64,000 nucleotides of DNA. Source: Roseimicrobium sp. ORNL1. Lineage in GTDB: Bacteria; Verrucomicrobiota; Verrucomicrobiia; Verrucomicrobiales; Verrucomicrobiaceae. Below are positions 53,348 to 61,362 of the stretch, one piece after another. Every line of letters starts with the position of its first letter. Position 1 is the first letter of the stretch. Both the position numbers and the translations under genes were made by a program. Location of the stretch: positions 6,758,001-6,822,000 of the forward strand of contig NZ_CP049143.1 of the NCBI RefSeq assembly GCF_011044495.1. Direction: 5' to 3'. Below the pieces are notes generated by a model. That model was not told where the DNA came from. It did no database searches and was given only the letters and a program-made list of their open reading frames with translations.

Positions 53348-56300
53348 ATGCCACCTTCACCGTCAGCCGCGCCAGGCATGCGTTTCGGGAACTTCGAAGT
53401 CCTCACTGACTCCAGCGGTAAAAACTGCCTGCTGGGCGGGGGGGCTTTTGGCAAGACGTACAAGGCTCGGCACATGTTCCTGAAGCGCATCGTGGCGCTG
53501 AAGGTGCTGCATGATCGCTACGCCAACGAACCGCGCGCCCGCGAACGTTTCCTGAGGGAGGCACAGGCGGCGCATGAACTCAAGCATCCCCACATTGCTG
53601 AGGTGCTGGACTTCGGCGAGGCGGATGGCTCCCTGTACTATGCCATGGAGTTCTGCTCCGGAGGCGACCTGGAGCACTACACCAAGGATGCCAAGGGCCC
53701 GGTGCCACCCATCGTGTGCCTCGGCTTTGCCCGCCAGATTTGCAAGGCGCTCGCCTATGCGCACGAGCGTAGCTTCTACCATCGCGACCTGAAGCCGCCG
53801 AATGTGATGCTGGCCTCTTCAGAAGGTGAGCCTCTGCTGAAGCTCATCGACTTCGGCCTGGTGAAGATGGGGATGGATGACACTGAGGAGTCCTCCGGTC
53901 TCACCATGGCTGGCGAGGTGCTCGGCACGCCCATGTTTGCCAGTCCGGAACAGCTTCGCGAAGAGGATCTGGATCACCGCAGCGATCTCTTTTCGCTGGG
54001 CATGACCCTCTGGTACCTGCTGGAGGGTGCGCCACCAGTGCCCGGCAGCGCACTCACCGTGATGGCGGAGCGGCTGAGCAGCAAGTCTTATGAAAAGCTC
54101 TTCTCCATGCGGGTGCCTCGCGAGGTAAGACCCTTGCTTTCCAAGCTGCTCGAGAAGGACCCCAACAAGCGGTATCAAAACGCCGATGCCGTGCTGGCTG
54201 CGCTGACCGAAGTGGTCGACGACCTGGAAAAGAATAAAGCCAAAAGCACGCCATCACCACAAGCGCTCGCGCCTTCTGCCGCGACTGAATCTGTCATCGC
54301 GGAAGCCGCCAAGCCCGGCATGGGCGGGCTGATGGTGCACGCCAGCGTTGCGCAAGACTCTGGAAAATCTCCGGCCGCGGGCACCGCCACCAGCACGCCC
54401 CCGACAAGTACTGCAGTTACTGCGGAGACAAGCACCAGTCACACTTCTTCTGAACAAGCCCCTGCCGCCACTTCGGCATCAATCTCATCCTCGACCGAGA
54501 CCCCAAGCGAATCCCCCAAAGCACCGCGCCTGCAGTTTCTCAAGACGCTTGGCCACTGTGTGCTGGGCGAAGCGAAAGTGGCGCTCGATCGTACCAACGA
54601 CACGGAGTTGGTGGTGGTACAACTTCAGGACGGTCTCGACAGCACGGCCACCTGGCCAGCACGTCTTGCGGGAGCGGCGCAAACCATTCCGCCACGGCTC
54701 ACGGGAGATCTGCCGCTCATCACGCAGATCCACGACAACCATCCGTATGCGGTCTGCGCCAGCTCGGGCACCGTTCGCCTGGTGCAGGTGTTGCAGGCGC
54801 GGGGAAACCTGCCTTTTCTCGAAGCGGCACAAATACTCAGCCAGATCGCCCTCGTTTTGGATGAAGGCCAGAGCAGCAACAGGCGGCATGATCTGCAACT
54901 CAACCAGATTTACCTCGCGCCACTGGTGGCCAATCCGGCGGAAGGCGCCCCGGCCTACACGCTGGTGACACTGCAGCTTGAGCAGTGGCCGGCATTTCTG
55001 ACCTGCGTGCCTCTGAGGCAGATCGCCTCGGCCATGCCCGGGCACATGGAGGACAATGATCCTGGCGCCACAGGCATGATGACCATGCGGAATTCGGCGA
55101 CGGACGAATTCCTCTCCCAGAATGCGGCTTTTGGCGGCCTCATCTACCGGCTCATCACCGGAGGTGAACCACGCTCGGCGATGTACCGGTCGAAGAACAA
55201 CTACCGGCCGATTCCCAATCTCTCGCGCGAAGGGAACCATCTGCTGGCCAGCTGCCTGGAAGGTTCAGCCAATGATGAGACGCTCAGCCATCTGCTGGAA
55301 AAGATGATGCGGGCGGAGAAGAGCAACCTTGTTCCACATTCCTCCAGCACCCGCAGCAACGCAGGCGCTCTCAGTTCCTCCGCGACGGCGCTGAAATCTT
55401 CGGTGCCAAAGACGGAGCAGCCTCCGGCCTCAACGACGGGATCGGTTTCTTCGATCTCCAGTTCGCCACTCAAGACTTCCCCGCCCAAAGCTACTGAAGA
55501 AGTCTCCCAAGCCCTTCCGCCTGCCGCTGCCATAGCACCTCCGCTCCCACCGGTTGCGCCGCCCGTGCCTGTACCAGCACCTGCGGTCGTCCAGCCTCCG
55601 CCGGTGCCAGTCGTGCCCGCGCCAGAGCCTCCTGCCAGTAGCCCTTCTCCTTCCCCTGCTCCGGCACTGCCCCCTATTGCTGCTGCCTCCACCGCGCTTC
55701 CTCTACCGCCGACGGCTCCTCCCACGCCCGCTGCGCCTCCGGAACCGCCCAAGTCTCAGGTCACTCCGGTCAAACCTGCGCCGCCCCAACCGCCGGCAAA
55801 GAAAGCAGAAAAGGAGAAAGAAAAGAAACCCAAGTCGGCGCCTGCTCCTGCTCCCGCCGCTCCTGTTGCACCTCATGCGAAAGGTCAACCCACGACCGGG
55901 ATCCCGCCGCTCGTGTGGATCGCTGCCGCGGCGTCGCTGCTCATTCTGGGGACCGTGGTGGGCGTCGGTTTCTATGCTTACCAGGGATGGCGCAGTTCCA
56001 AGCCGGATCCCACGCCCAGCACACCGACGGAGCCGTCCACAACACCCGTGGCGCTCGTGACCCCGCCGGAGCCGCCCAAGCAGGAATCGAAAACGTCTTC
56101 GACCTCGACAACTCCGAAGCCTCCGGAGACGCCCTCGAACTCTTTACCTCAGACGCCAACACCACCACCCACAACGCCGGTAGCGGAGAAAAAGCCCGAG
56201 GCTCCGCCGAAACCCAAGCCGCCGAAGGAACTGGTCTTCACAAGGAGGGTCTTCCCCTCGACCGTCCGCGTGCGGGCAAATGGGCGCACCGTGGCATTGA

Positions 56301-57133
56301 CCAAAAATTCGCTCGACCAGTTCGTGCTGAACTTGTCGTCCGTCTCCGACTATCCGCTCTCCATCCTCATCTCCCCGCCGCTCGGATTCACCGGGGAATC
56401 CCATCTCATCACCGATCCGAAAGAATCGACCTACGATCACGACGTTGTCTTCAAGCGCGGCAAGGTGGAACTCAAGGTCCCCGGTAACTCGGACTACGAC
56501 CACGCCGAGTTCACGTTTGTGGACTATCATGATGAGGAACGGGCCAGTTTTCAGGGGAACGACATCTCCAAGCCCGAGGTGGAGACCGTTTCGCTGAGGA
56601 ATGGACTCGCAACAGCAGAGCTGCCCACTGGGACCTACCAGATTCGCCTCATCTCCAACTCTCAAAACGTTGCGCCGATGACTCTGGCGGCCAAATATCC
56701 GGTGCCAAAGCGAGCCGGGACTGATGACTTGAAAGTGGCCTCAGAGGGATGGGGTGGACACACGTATGAGTGCAACTTCGAGGTCACGGTGGACATCAAG
56801 GGGGAGAAGACAAAGCTCTACGCCCGGCGCGTGCTGATTTTGGATCAGGACCTTGCCAAAGGCACCCTCCAGGACTACTGGGCCCGTGAGGGGAAGACAC
56901 CCGAACGTCAGCAGAGCGAAATCCGGGACATCAAGGTGGACGCGTCGGGGACCCTTACCATGCTGCTTCCCCTGGAGGATCCCCAGCACAAGAACGACAC
57001 GTTCGACGAGATCGTCGAACTCAAACGCAATGCCCAAGGTGGCATCAGCTTCCAATGTTACCCTGCGGCGAATTCCGCGAACAAGACGCGTGAGGACTAC
57101 CTCGCCAAAGGATCGGCTAAAAGGGTGAGATAA
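53348..57133 (+). CDS. Hanks-type Ser/Thr kinase with second degenerate kinase domain and extracytoplasmic C-terminus
   Basis: This protein has 1261 residues. The first kinase domain (about 13-290) has GGGAFGKTY, Lys52 in VALKV, the HRDLKPPN loop (His145, Asp147), and Asp168 in DFG. A Ser/Thr/Ala-rich linker leads to a second region (about 395-660) that reads as a pseudokinase: LQFLKTLGHCVLGEAKVAL, Gln in place of the VAxK lysine (VVVQL), RHDLQLNQIYL at the HRD loop position (His514, Asp515), no DFG, and a C-lobe phrase FGGLIYRLITGGEP. A long Pro/Ala linker (about 700-850), one membrane helix (about 854-878), a second Pro/Thr linker and a 290-residue beta-rich extracytoplasmic part follow. 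It should phosphorylate cytoplasmic targets in response to an envelope signal. The pseudokinase assignment is by eye. Confidence 0.85.
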   Translation: MPPSPSAAPGMRFGNFEVLTDSSGKNCLLGGGAFGKTYKARHMFLKRIVALKVLHDRYANEPRARERFLREAQAAHELKHPHIAEVLDFGEADGSLYYAMEFCSGGDLEHYTKDAKGPVPPIVCLGFARQICKALAYAHERSFYHRDLKPPNVMLASSEGEPLLKLIDFGLVKMGMDDTEESSGLTMAGEVLGTPMFASPEQLREEDLDHRSDLFSLGMTLWYLLEGAPPVPGSALTVMAERLSSKSYEKLFSMRVPREVRPLLSKLLEKDPNKRYQNADAVLAALTEVVDDLEKNKAKSTPSPQALAPSAATESVIAEAAKPGMGGLMVHASVAQDSGKSPAAGTATSTPPTSTAVTAETSTSHTSSEQAPAATSASISSSTETPSESPKAPRLQFLKTLGHCVLGEAKVALDRTNDTELVVVQLQDGLDSTATWPARLAGAAQTIPPRLTGDLPLITQIHDNHPYAVCASSGTVRLVQVLQARGNLPFLEAAQILSQIALVLDEGQSSNRRHDLQLNQIYLAPLVANPAEGAPAYTLVTLQLEQWPAFLTCVPLRQIASAMPGHMEDNDPGATGMMTMRNSATDEFLSQNAAFGGLIYRLITGGEPRSAMYRSKNNYRPIPNLSREGNHLLASCLEGSANDETLSHLLEKMMRAEKSNLVPHSSSTRSNAGALSSSATALKSSVPKTEQPPASTTGSVSSISSSPLKTSPPKATEEVSQALPPAAAIAPPLPPVAPPVPVPAPAVVQPPPVPVVPAPEPPASSPSPSPAPALPPIAAASTALPLPPTAPPTPAAPPEPPKSQVTPVKPAPPQPPAKKAEKEKEKKPKSAPAPAPAAPVAPHAKGQPTTGIPPLVWIAAAASLLILGTVVGVGFYAYQGWRSSKPDPTPSTPTEPSTTPVALVTPPEPPKQESKTSSTSTTPKPPETPSNSLPQTPTPPPTTPVAEKKPEAPPKPKPPKELVFTRRVFPSTVRVRANGRTVALTKNSLDQFVLNLSSVSDYPLSILISPPLGFTGESHLITDPKESTYDHDVVFKRGKVELKVPGNSDYDHAEFTFVDYHDEERASFQGNDISKPEVETVSLRNGLATAELPTGTYQIRLISNSQNVAPMTLAAKYPVPKRAGTDDLKVASEGWGGHTYECNFEVTVDIKGEKTKLYARRVLILDQDLAKGTLQDYWAREGKTPERQQSEIRDIKVDASGTLTMLLPLEDPQHKNDTFDEIVELKRNAQGGISFQCYPAANSANKTREDYLAKGSAKRVR

Positions 57134-57352: not shown

Positions 57353-58459
57353 ATGAAAATCAACCTTCACCTCAAAGGTATCATGGCTGCGGCCTTCGTC
57401 GCAGTGTTGCCCTGTGCCAGTTATGGCTACGGCGTTGGCGCTCTGGGCGCCGCCACGGCCGACTCGGCCCGCGGTGGTACCGCTGCTGCTCCGGTGATCG
57501 CCATTTCCGGCAGCGCACCCTCCCAGGCATCCGTGATTTCTGCCGCTCAGGCCTCCACGCCTGACACCACCGCTGCAGTTGTGGCTTCCACCCAGAAGAC
57601 CACCTCGACCACCAGTGCCAGCGCTCCCCGCCACACCTCCTCGAGCAGCCACTCGACGAGCACCAGCACGAGCTACTCCTCCAAGGAAGTGGTGACCAAG
57701 AATCCCGTGGTGGAGCCCATAGTAGATTCTTTCGGACCGGAAGTCGCCCTCACCGTTGGCTGGGACAGCCAGTACATGTTCAAGGGCCTCGATAACGTGC
57801 GCGCCAGCAGCTTCAGCGGTCGCGACGAATCGTCCATCGCGTATGCCAAGCTCACGGCGGCCTATCAGGGCTTCGGCTTCAACCTTGGCTACCTCAGCGC
57901 GGTGGAAGAAAGCGATCCCCGCTTCTCCCCCACCGAACGCTCGGAGTATTATAGCGAAATCATCGCCGGCGTGAACTACACCGCCTCCATCATCGGTGGC
58001 GTGCTGGACGGCACCATTGGATACAATGCGTACTTCTTCCCTGAAGAAGACTTCTGGGGCACCGGCTATCAGGGCGAACTGTGGGCCCGCCTTGCGGTCG
58101 TAGCCTGCCCCTGGGTCACCCCGAGCTTCACCTACTCCTACTTCCACTCAGAAGAGAAGATCCTCGAAGGTCACTTCTTCGAGTTCCGCCTCGACAGCAC
58201 GATCCCTGTCTATGAAGGCAGCGGCTTCAAGGTTGCGGTGAACCCGTACTTCTCCATCAGCTACGACCAGGACTACAACGGCGTCGGTGGCGACTGGAAC
58301 TCCATCGAAACGGGCATCAAGGTCCCGGTTTCGATCGGCGACCACCTCATCATCGCCCTCTCCGGCAACTACGGCTGGGACATCGGCGACAACCGCAGCA
58401 ACTTCGACCGCGGATTTGATGATTTCTGGGGCGGGGTGTCTGTCACGTACCGCTTCTAA
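57353..58459 (+). CDS. Outer-membrane porin-like beta-barrel (TorF-like putative porin)
   Basis: This 368-residue protein has a signal peptide (ends SYGYG). A Ser/Thr/Ala-rich segment (about 30-110) precedes a barrel with repeated amphipathic strands (VALTVGWDSQYMFKG, FGFNLGYLSAVEES, FEFRLDSTIPVYEGSGFKVAVNPYFSISYDQDY) and a terminal phenylalanine (VSVTYRF), the insertion signal of outer-membrane proteins. The family resembles TorF-like putative porins. It should let small solutes through the outer membrane. It lies between the two kinase genes. Confidence 0.82.
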   Translation: MKINLHLKGIMAAAFVAVLPCASYGYGVGALGAATADSARGGTAAAPVIAISGSAPSQASVISAAQASTPDTTAAVVASTQKTTSTTSASAPRHTSSSSHSTSTSTSYSSKEVVTKNPVVEPIVDSFGPEVALTVGWDSQYMFKGLDNVRASSFSGRDESSIAYAKLTAAYQGFGFNLGYLSAVEESDPRFSPTERSEYYSEIIAGVNYTASIIGGVLDGTIGYNAYFFPEEDFWGTGYQGELWARLAVVACPWVTPSFTYSYFHSEEKILEGHFFEFRLDSTIPVYEGSGFKVAVNPYFSISYDQDYNGVGGDWNSIETGIKVPVSIGDHLIIALSGNYGWDIGDNRSNFDRGFDDFWGGVSVTYRF

Positions 58460-58659: not shown

Positions 58660-58776
58660 AACCGGACCCCATTCACCACTGCGGCATGGGGAGGCGCCTC
58701 ATGCCGCATTTTTTTTCTTCCCGCCCGGCCAGATTGAAGCACATTGCGCGGGCCGCGCCACGGCCCAGCCCTCTCC

Positions 58777-61362
58777 ATGCCCGACCCCAAGAAACCCATC
58801 AATCTGGACGACATCGACTTTGGCTCGACTCTTCGCGGCCATCAAAAGGGCGACCGGGTGTTCGACCGTTTCCTGCTGGAAAAGCTGCTGGGGCGCGGGG
58901 GCATGGGCGTGGTGTGGCTGGGAACCGATGAACGCCTGGGCCGCGAAGTGGCCCTGAAGTTCGCCCCGGAGGCCGTGCGCTACGACGACGTGGCGGTGGA
59001 CGAACTGAAGGAAGAGACCAAGAAGGGGCTCAACCTCGCACACCAGAACATCGTCAAAATCTACGACTTCCTCGTGGATGAAACCCATGCCGCCATCAGC
59101 ATGGAGTTCATTGATGGCGAGAACCTGGGCGCCCTGCGCACCCGCCAGCCAAACAAGGTGTTCGAGGTCCGCCAGATTGCGATGTGGGTGGGCCAGTTCC
59201 TGGATGCGCTCGACTACGCACACCGCATTGCGAAGGTCATTCACCGGGACCTTAAACCGGCGAACCTGATGATCGACCGTGAGGGCAACCTCCGCGTGAC
59301 AGACTTCGGCATTGCCCGAAGCATTTCGGACGCGATGAACCGCGCCACACTGGGCATAGGGAACTCGACAGGCACGCTCGCCTACATGTCGCCCCAGCAG
59401 GCGGACGGCAAGAAGCCCCACGTCACGGATGATCTCTATGCCTTCGGCAGCACCCTGTATGAACTGCTGACCGGCAAGCCGCCCTTCTTCACAGGCAATA
59501 TCATTTCCCAACTGCAGCACGATCCGGTGACGAGTCTCACCGAGCGACGCGAGGAGTTTGGCATCACCGACGGTGAGCCTATTCCCGTGGAATGGGAACA
59601 AACGATTCTCGCTTGCCTGGAGAAAACTCCGGAGAACCGCCCCGCGAGCGCTCTGGCAGTCCGGCAGCGCCTGGGCCTGGCTCCGGCCTGCCAGCCAGAA
59701 GTGCCGCCGCTTCCTGCTGTGCCTGGTGGCTCGGCCGCTGCAGGCGGATCGCCCACGAATTTCAGCCACTCGGCCGCCCACCTCCCCACGGGCCACGGCC
59801 CGACGCAGACGTATGTGCGCCCCGGCGCCGGCCTCACTGAGATGAGCCTGCCAAATCGGCCCATCGGCGCTGGACACATCAAGGTGGGTCCGGGTGTCAC
59901 TCCGGTCCAGCCTCCCACTTCTTCTACCCAGCACCACACTACCACCCAACCTGCCAAGAAAGGCGGCGGTATCCTTGTAGCGGTGGGATTGGTGTTTCTA
60001 TTTTTCGTCTTGGCTCTCGTCGGTGGCGGCTGGTGGGTATGGAACAAGACACCCTATTTGAAGAAGCTTCTCGGCAAGGAGGTCGCGGTGAGTCCCCTTT
60101 TGGACAATCCCACCCCCACTCCAACTCCGCCCGGTCCCGGACCGGCTCCAACTCCGACGCCACCACCCACGCCTCCCGGCCCTGGTCCTGCACCCACGCC
60201 TACTCCTACTCCCACTCCCCCCGGACCGGGACCCGCACCCACTCCGACGCCCACGCCTCCGAAGGTCACTTCCGTTCAGGCGATGATTGATGCCGCGAAG
60301 TCCGGCGACACCGTGACCGTTCCGGAGGGGATCTACGAGGAACAGCTCAAGTTCAAGGCCGGCATCACGCTGAAGGCAGCCGTGCCGGGCAAGGTGACCG
60401 TGCAGACGGACGGCAAGTCCGGCGCGGTCCTCATGGTGGAGAACTGCGGCAGCGGGTCCATCAGCGGCTTCGTATTCCAGCACACCGGCACAGAGATCAC
60501 CGAGAAGGTGAACTGGCCGGTGGCCTTGGTGAAGGCGAGCACCATCGTGATGGATGGCTGCACCATTCAGGCTGGGTTGGGTGACGGCCTCCTGGTGACG
60601 GGCGCGGGCAAGTCGCAGTTCACCAAATGCATCATCCGGAACAACACCACCAACGGCGCCATCTTCGAAAGCGGCGCGTCCGGCTCCATGTCCGAAACAG
60701 AAGTGCGGAAGAATGGGGAAAGCGGTGTCGAGGTGCGTTTCCTCGGTACTGCGCCGGTGTTTTCCAGGTGCACATTCGCTGACAACGGCCTCGCCGGATT
60801 GATCGCCAAGGACGGCGGCAGCGCCACAGTGCAGGACCAGACCAAGGTCACCAAGAATGGCGACCCGGGCATTGCCGGCGTCGGCGAGGGCGTGACCATC
60901 AACGTCAACGGCACTGAATTGCAGGGGAACACGATCGGCATCGCCGTGATGGAGGGTGCCAAGGCAAAAATCCAGGAGTGCATCATCACGGAGAGCCAGC
61001 AGGCCGGCATTCAAGCCCAGGCTCCTGCCGCAGGTTCCGAATTCCTCAACAACACCGTGCAAAGCGGCAAGCTGGACGGGCTGCTGGCGACGGGCACCTC
61101 CGGTACTGCCATCACCATCACGGGGAACAAGATCAAGGGCAACGGCGGCCATGGCATCCTCATCTTCGGGGCCGGCTTCAAGCCCAAGGTCGAGCAGAAC
61201 GAAATCTCCACCAACGCCGGGTACGGCATTCTCGCTGCTGAAGGTGTCTCTGGTTCAGTGACTGACAACACCGCTCGTGGCAACCACCTTGGCGGCGTGA
61301 AGAACGAGGGCGCTGGAGCAGATATCGTCATCCAGGGGAATCTGGCGGACGAATCCAAGTAG
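58777..61362 (+). CDS. Hanks-type Ser/Thr kinase with Pro/Thr linker and extracytoplasmic beta-helix
   Basis: The start ATG 58777 gives 861 residues; an in-frame TTG at 58744 was rejected as upstream of the kinase fold. The kinase domain (about 25-295) has GRGGMGVVW, Lys61 in VALKF, HRDLKPAN (His156, Asp158), and Asp176 in DFG. After it come a linker, one membrane helix (about 396-422), and a Pro/Thr/Gly stretch at about 443-496 made of three near-repeats of PPGPGPAPTPTP. The last 360 residues form a right-handed parallel beta-helix of NosD/DUF1565 kind (MIDAAKSGDTVTVPEGIYEEQLKFKAGITLKA; repeated GNTI/GNKI turns). The beta-helix would lie in the periplasm and could bind a carbohydrate or wall fragment as the signal. 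Sensing by a beta-helix is inferred. Confidence 0.88.
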   Translation: MPDPKKPINLDDIDFGSTLRGHQKGDRVFDRFLLEKLLGRGGMGVVWLGTDERLGREVALKFAPEAVRYDDVAVDELKEETKKGLNLAHQNIVKIYDFLVDETHAAISMEFIDGENLGALRTRQPNKVFEVRQIAMWVGQFLDALDYAHRIAKVIHRDLKPANLMIDREGNLRVTDFGIARSISDAMNRATLGIGNSTGTLAYMSPQQADGKKPHVTDDLYAFGSTLYELLTGKPPFFTGNIISQLQHDPVTSLTERREEFGITDGEPIPVEWEQTILACLEKTPENRPASALAVRQRLGLAPACQPEVPPLPAVPGGSAAAGGSPTNFSHSAAHLPTGHGPTQTYVRPGAGLTEMSLPNRPIGAGHIKVGPGVTPVQPPTSSTQHHTTTQPAKKGGGILVAVGLVFLFFVLALVGGGWWVWNKTPYLKKLLGKEVAVSPLLDNPTPTPTPPGPGPAPTPTPPPTPPGPGPAPTPTPTPTPPGPGPAPTPTPTPPKVTSVQAMIDAAKSGDTVTVPEGIYEEQLKFKAGITLKAAVPGKVTVQTDGKSGAVLMVENCGSGSISGFVFQHTGTEITEKVNWPVALVKASTIVMDGCTIQAGLGDGLLVTGAGKSQFTKCIIRNNTTNGAIFESGASGSMSETEVRKNGESGVEVRFLGTAPVFSRCTFADNGLAGLIAKDGGSATVQDQTKVTKNGDPGIAGVGEGVTINVNGTELQGNTIGIAVMEGAKAKIQECIITESQQAGIQAQAPAAGSEFLNNTVQSGKLDGLLATGTSGTAITITGNKIKGNGGHGILIFGAGFKPKVEQNEISTNAGYGILAAEGVSGSVTDNTARGNHLGGVKNEGAGADIVIQGNLADESK

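Follow-up and report, generated by a model that had tools for sequence, protein, structure and literature searches.

A predicted membrane-anchored kinase with a kinase-derived, degenerate second domain in Roseimicrobium sp. ORNL1

Described pseudokinases and the layout of the locus

In the JAK family, a pseudokinase (JH2) is followed by a kinase (JH1) in one chain, and the pseudokinase regulates the kinase. The protein considered here carries the reverse order, an active-type Hanks kinase domain (K1) followed by a degenerate kinase-like domain (D2), and the JAKs differ from it further in being tyrosine kinases of animals. A comparison with the JAKs, drawn in an earlier note on this DNA, holds for the presence of both domain types in one chain but fails for their order. 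Plant tandem kinase proteins such as Yr15/WTK1 likewise combine an active-type kinase and a pseudokinase in one chain (PMC6170490, PMC6997164). Their order, kinase then pseudokinase, is that of K1–D2; they are immune proteins of another kinase lineage, and common descent as a tandem is not implied.

Bacterial pseudokinases have been little studied, and those covered by a 2025 review, which counts seven pseudokinase families within 42 families of bacterial Ser/Thr kinases, are not described there as standing in tandem with an active kinase (PMC12599244). The pseudokinase domain of MviN (ActPs3 family, Mycobacterium) is Hanks-type with degenerate lysine, catalytic and metal motifs, and is phosphorylated by a kinase and then used as a dock (PMC12599244). 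Unlike in K1–D2, that kinase, PknB, is a separate protein, and MviN is a different membrane protein, from Actinobacteria. EssB/YukC of type VII secretion, likewise bacterial, is a pseudokinase that is linked to the membrane and whose activation loop is reduced (PMC12599244), but it has no active kinase in its chain and is part of a secretion machine. GLW pseudokinases resemble D2 in that hydrophobic residues stand where the beta-3 Lys would be and a membrane segment lies C-terminal to the domain; they occur mainly in Proteobacteria, with no tandem described (PMC12599244). None of 34 D2 domains has a W at the position where GLW replaces HRD, and D2 falls outside the GLW family. Membership of the pseudokinase families ActPs1-3, CP1, DYD and DLHK would be judged by residue constraints specific to each family.

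Tandem kinases, Verrucomicrobia and Planctomycetes all go unmentioned in the text of PMC12599244, and no bacterial kinase–pseudokinase tandem was found in the literature searched, which mostly excludes subscription papers. Provisionally, the K1–D2 pair is without a described bacterial counterpart, the tandem arrangement being known from plants and, reversed, from JAKs.

The window, the whole stretch of 64,000 nucleotides that was analysed, derives from a genome assembled as one contig of 7.96 Mb. The gene of interest (Table 1) begins with a start Met that is common to the window protein and its ortholog in another species of the same genus. In K1, residues 28-279 align to PF00069 (E 2.9e-47); HRDLKP lies at 145, DFG (within LIDFGL) at 166, and the residue set is complete for catalysis. 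K1 is of the general PknB/PknA type, whose members have no second kinase domain; conversely, the window protein has no PASTA domains, and the whole protein scores 214 bits against the PASTA kinase model (Stk1/PknB, NF033483), below the cut-off of 450. The C-terminal residues 962-1261 have no match in Pfam. Taken together, the product is probably a Ser/Thr kinase that is anchored in the membrane and contains a pseudokinase of its own.

Table 1. Features of the K1–D2 gene, with positions in the window.
Feature	Residues	Position	Strand	Basis or remark
Whole gene: K1, D2, Pro-rich linker, one transmembrane segment, C-terminal domain	1261 aa	53348..57133	+	exact ORF
K1, active-type Hanks kinase domain	12-293	53381..54226	+	PF00069 E 2.9e-47; motif census
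Low-complexity K1–D2 linker, rapid evolution	294-390	54227..54517	+	dN/dS 0.41
D2, predicted pseudokinase domain	391-660	54518..55327	+	leave-out profile 99-101 bits; family profile vs PDB kinases 3.4e-28; dN/dS 0.088
Catalytic-loop equivalent RHDLQLNQIYL; Asp present, Lys and Asn replaced by Gln	513-523	54884..54916	+	alignments; motif census
Thr579, candidate phosphorylation site in remnant activation segment	579	55082..55084	+	conserved in 38/43 D2 domains
LSREGN, D2 family signature	625-630	55220..55237	+	Asn630 in 43/43 D2 domains
Pro/Ala/Ser-rich linker	661-852	55328..55903	+	sequence; dN/dS
Single predicted transmembrane segment	855-873	55910..55966	+	hydropathy
C-terminal domain, presumably extracytoplasmic	962-1261	56231..57130	+	no Pfam match

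Downstream on the same strand lie a gene for a protein of 368 aa that resembles an outer-membrane barrel and has no Pfam match (57353-58459, +) and, close behind, a gene in which an ordinary Hanks-type kinase is joined to a right-handed beta-helix (58744-61362, +; PF00069, PF13229). PSD/PSCyt gene families are also present within the 64-kb window and point to the Planctomycetota-Verrucomicrobiota group.

Kinase ancestry and catalytic losses of the second domain

Searched alone, the D2 of the window protein (residues 391-660) had no match in Pfam, NCBIfam or the PDB sequences; its kinship with kinases is visible through family profiles only. A small profile of six D2 sequences including that of the window (A1) matched PknA at 1.3e-9. 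The alignment A5, which comprises 34 D2 domains collected from relatives in the class and their surroundings, matched PknA at 3.4e-28, PknE at 1e-25 and PknB at 1e-22 among PDB sequences, aligned up to the C-lobe; these are the nearest solved relatives of D2, and StkP and eukaryotic kinases followed at lower ranks. Singly, 20 of the 34 members match PF00069 (best 9e-10), and hhalign comparison of A5 with a K1 profile gave 99.2% (E 9e-20). The window D2 scored 101 bits against a profile built without itself and its ortholog, and 99.4 bits against one built without any member of its own taxonomic family. Shuffled controls for these leave-out profiles (n=200) reached at most about 4 bits, and the window K1 scored about 47-49 bits against the same profiles.

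That residues 391-660 lack a kinase fold and resemble one by chance is hardly credible: D2 by itself finds no database match and an unaided AlphaFold2 model of it, made from D2 alone without an alignment, is uninformative (pLDDT 35), but the D2-family profiles match kinases strongly under both leave-out and shuffle controls. Judged from sequence, D2 is a descendant of a protein kinase domain, with a match far beyond chance, and its significant profile match to known kinases places it by ancestry in the protein kinase superfamily. The second kinase-like domain that the earlier note had placed at about residues 395-660 is thereby confirmed.

The motif census covered 34 D2 and 32 K1 domains. In the joint alignment the beta-3 Lys, alpha-C Glu, HRD, catalytic Lys and Asn, DFG and activation-loop Glu are present in all 32 first domains. 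The DFG Asp and the catalytic-loop Asn are missing from every one of the 34 second domains, of which four have the beta-3 Lys, nine the alpha-C Glu and 14 the catalytic Asp; the alignment of single members within degenerate D2 segments is uncertain, and the absence of DFG is visible by eye. In the window D2, the DFG Asp and the activation-loop Glu are gone and the Lys after the catalytic Asp is replaced by Q517, which bears out the reported absence of the LKP lysine and of DFG. The motif RHDLQLNQIYL, which the earlier note put at the catalytic-loop position, has lost its Lys and its Asn (Q520), yet it retains the catalytic-loop Asp (R513-H514-D515). The VAxK lysine is missing as claimed; alignments differ on whether V424 or Q425 stands in its place, and the proposed Gln is one of these two. 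Lacking the VAIK Lys and the DFG Asp, the window D2 is a pseudokinase by the usage in which at least one of the VAIK Lys, HRD Asp and DFG Asp is absent.

Ordinary phosphoryl transfer cannot be expected of a domain with this residue set, and the use of Mg-ATP has very probably been lost as well. Retained nucleotide binding or another activity, such as AMPylation or glutamylation in the manner of SelO and SidJ, would accord with the catalytic-loop Asp of the window D2 and of 14/34 D2 domains and with the beta-3 Lys in 4/34. Such an activity is nevertheless improbable, as the DFG Asp and catalytic-loop Asn occur in no member (n=34) and few polar sites besides Asn630, Thr579 and D505 are conserved across the family.

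Recurrence and conservation of the pairing

Within its own taxonomic family, the window D2 has an ortholog of 85% identity from the same genus, and further genera hold distant matches, several of which are second domains downstream of an intact kinase. When run over 384 genomes of the class, profile A1 found many more. A profile of the C-terminal part of D2 matched 23 of the 384 class genomes at E 1e-8 or better, spread over 18 genera and 9 families. Outside the class this signature gave weak matches only (best 1e-7), which are probably C-lobes of ordinary kinases, and no D2 relative was found among the viral contigs scanned. In 32 of the 34 D2 proteins the same frame encodes a K1 immediately ahead of D2, the gap being usually 20-51 residues, so that kinase and pseudokinase share one chain as a conserved pair in 9 families. 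The recurrence of this live-plus-dead pairing in relatives across the class shows the arrangement to be real and conserved. The genome of the window itself holds about 28 kinases above the Pfam cut-off and three D2 domains, located in the window protein, in a tandem protein of 1556 residues and in a standalone protein.

In most members D2 is followed by a transmembrane segment and a variable C-terminus. The C-termini joined to K1–D2 contain Sel1 repeats in 13 of 27 cases, and otherwise include TPR, PEGA, FGE-sulfatase and beta-helix types; three relatives (G030, G059, G047) stop right after D2 and have no transmembrane segment. Since the part beyond the membrane differs between proteins, K1 and D2 appear as the common core and the C-terminus as the exchangeable part. 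The earlier proposal that D2 is linked to signals from the C-terminal envelope domain is weakened accordingly, because the pair is joined to very different C-termini and three members end at D2.

Purifying selection acts on D2. Comparison with the congeneric ortholog gives a dN/dS of 0.056 for K1 and 0.088 for D2, and of 0.41 and 0.21 for the two linkers. Pairwise distances of K1 and D2 are correlated (r 0.84; 0/2000 permutations as high), a correlation that is also expected from shared descent within one gene. The mean pairwise difference is 0.75 for D2 and 0.55 for K1, and D2 is thus the faster-evolving domain.

Residue conservation was counted in 43 D2 domains. Asn630 occurs in all 43, and Thr579 in 38, amid a remnant activation segment that is otherwise little conserved. 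When this segment was shuffled within each sequence and realigned (n=60), the highest Thr column reached 13. Thr579 aligns with a Thr of the K1 activation segment, the LTxxG Thr in one alignment and the GTP Thr in another. G030, G059 and G047, the three members that have no membrane segment, lack the conserved Thr, though their K1 is intact. The faster evolution of D2 and its loss or absence in several relatives could mark it as a role-less, decaying remnant of a duplicated kinase. This reading is very improbable, being contradicted by the dN/dS of 0.088, by the constancy of Asn630 (43/43) and Thr579 (38/43), and by the retention of D2 over 18 genera and 9 families.

A possible role for D2 and its occurrence apart from K1

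The most likely reading, to which a probability of roughly 0.55 is assigned, is that D2 serves as an accessory pseudokinase module that is both a contact partner and a phosphorylation target of K1. Its retention in one chain with K1, under selection and with a single activation-segment Thr preserved, suggests that D2 is a partner and substrate of K1. In the mechanism proposed, D2 would sit in the cytoplasm as a resident partner of K1, which would contact it and phosphorylate its activation-segment Thr, either in cis or within a dimer. Phosphorylated D2 might then tune K1, or offer a phospho-threonine dock to downstream proteins. The contact between K1 and D2, the phosphorylation of Thr579 and an effect on output are each inferred here from sequence comparison. 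Gating of K1 by D2 through direct contact, as the earlier note had envisaged, would be one form of this. Overall, that note's interpretation stands as regards the kinase origin of D2, its loss of catalytic residues and its conserved presence beside an active-type kinase in one chain, and loses ground in its envelope link.

The description of D2 as accessory follows from close relatives of K1 that lack it: three proteins (L172, L175, L179) and a group of nine. In the three, which provide natural D2-less controls, K1 is followed by a membrane segment and Sel1-like repeats. A first tree had placed the tandem K1 domains in an exclusive clade (100/100), a result that was discarded, its comparison kinases being only lower-scoring ones; a search of the class with K1 added the D2-less members. 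In the corrected tree K1 forms one clade (100/100) with D2-less kinases nested among the tandem K1 domains, and the idea that every K1 of this type has a D2 was rejected on the same grounds. Parsimony requires six label changes on this tree. One gain of D2 and several losses would fit; a few independent exchanges of D2 are conceivable too.

Conversely, standalone D2-type proteins with no kinase in the chain exist, one of them in the genome of the window, so D2 is able to function in trans or without K1. This protein (L163:3999-6053, about C1:7784000-7786050) is a D2-type pseudokinase encoded by an ORF of 685 aa with the probable start MTLEQFLGNRYRL, and the conserved Thr is present. Its C-terminal region looks FHA-like by eye, without support from Pfam. 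A relative of it in another genome (G064) adjoins an ordinary kinase ORF (L170).

Seven proteins of the same taxonomic family (L007, L009, L010, L011, L013, L014, L015; 726-783 aa) combine a tandem of two degenerate kinase-like domains with a membrane segment at the C-terminus; their chains contain no catalytic kinase. In profile comparison, the first domain of this group matches K1 at 96.9% and the second matches D2 at 96.6%.

As K1 occurs without D2 and D2 without K1, neither strictly needs the other, which keeps alive a different and less probable account. D2 may, like MviN and EssB/YukC, be a scaffold on which substrates or downstream proteins dock, with little or no effect on K1 activity, and the shared chain would bring clients to the kinase. 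The doubly degenerate membrane proteins of the same family accord with this account, as does the service of known bacterial pseudokinases as scaffolds (PMC12599244). A relation to K1 itself is suggested instead by the pairing of the two domains and by the Thr conserved in the activation segment, though both are compatible with a scaffold too.

The preferred reading of D2 as a partner and target of K1 has a bolder and rather doubtful extension. The class may have evolved an ancient kinase–pseudokinase pair independently of animals and plants, in which D2 would control K1 allosterically through the phospho-Thr in what is left of its activation segment, and the sensor modules beyond the membrane would be interchangeable. 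These proteins unite a live and a dead domain in a single cytoplasmic unit and have D2-less as well as D2-only relatives; they offer a simple system for the effect of a pseudokinase on a kinase, a question studied elsewhere in JAKs and in the tandem kinases of plants.

Two further proteins vary the domain arrangement. A 1031-residue open frame on a short contig of an incomplete genome (L094, G030:C38) has an extra kinase-like stretch at 69-270 before K1 and D2, apparently giving three kinase-type domains in a row. In the genome of the window, a 723-aa protein (L162, about C1:6506053) contains a degenerate kinase that scores 22 bits to PF00069, below the cut-off; by eye, a receiver-like domain precedes this kinase, and a membrane segment and an FGE-sulfatase-like domain follow it.
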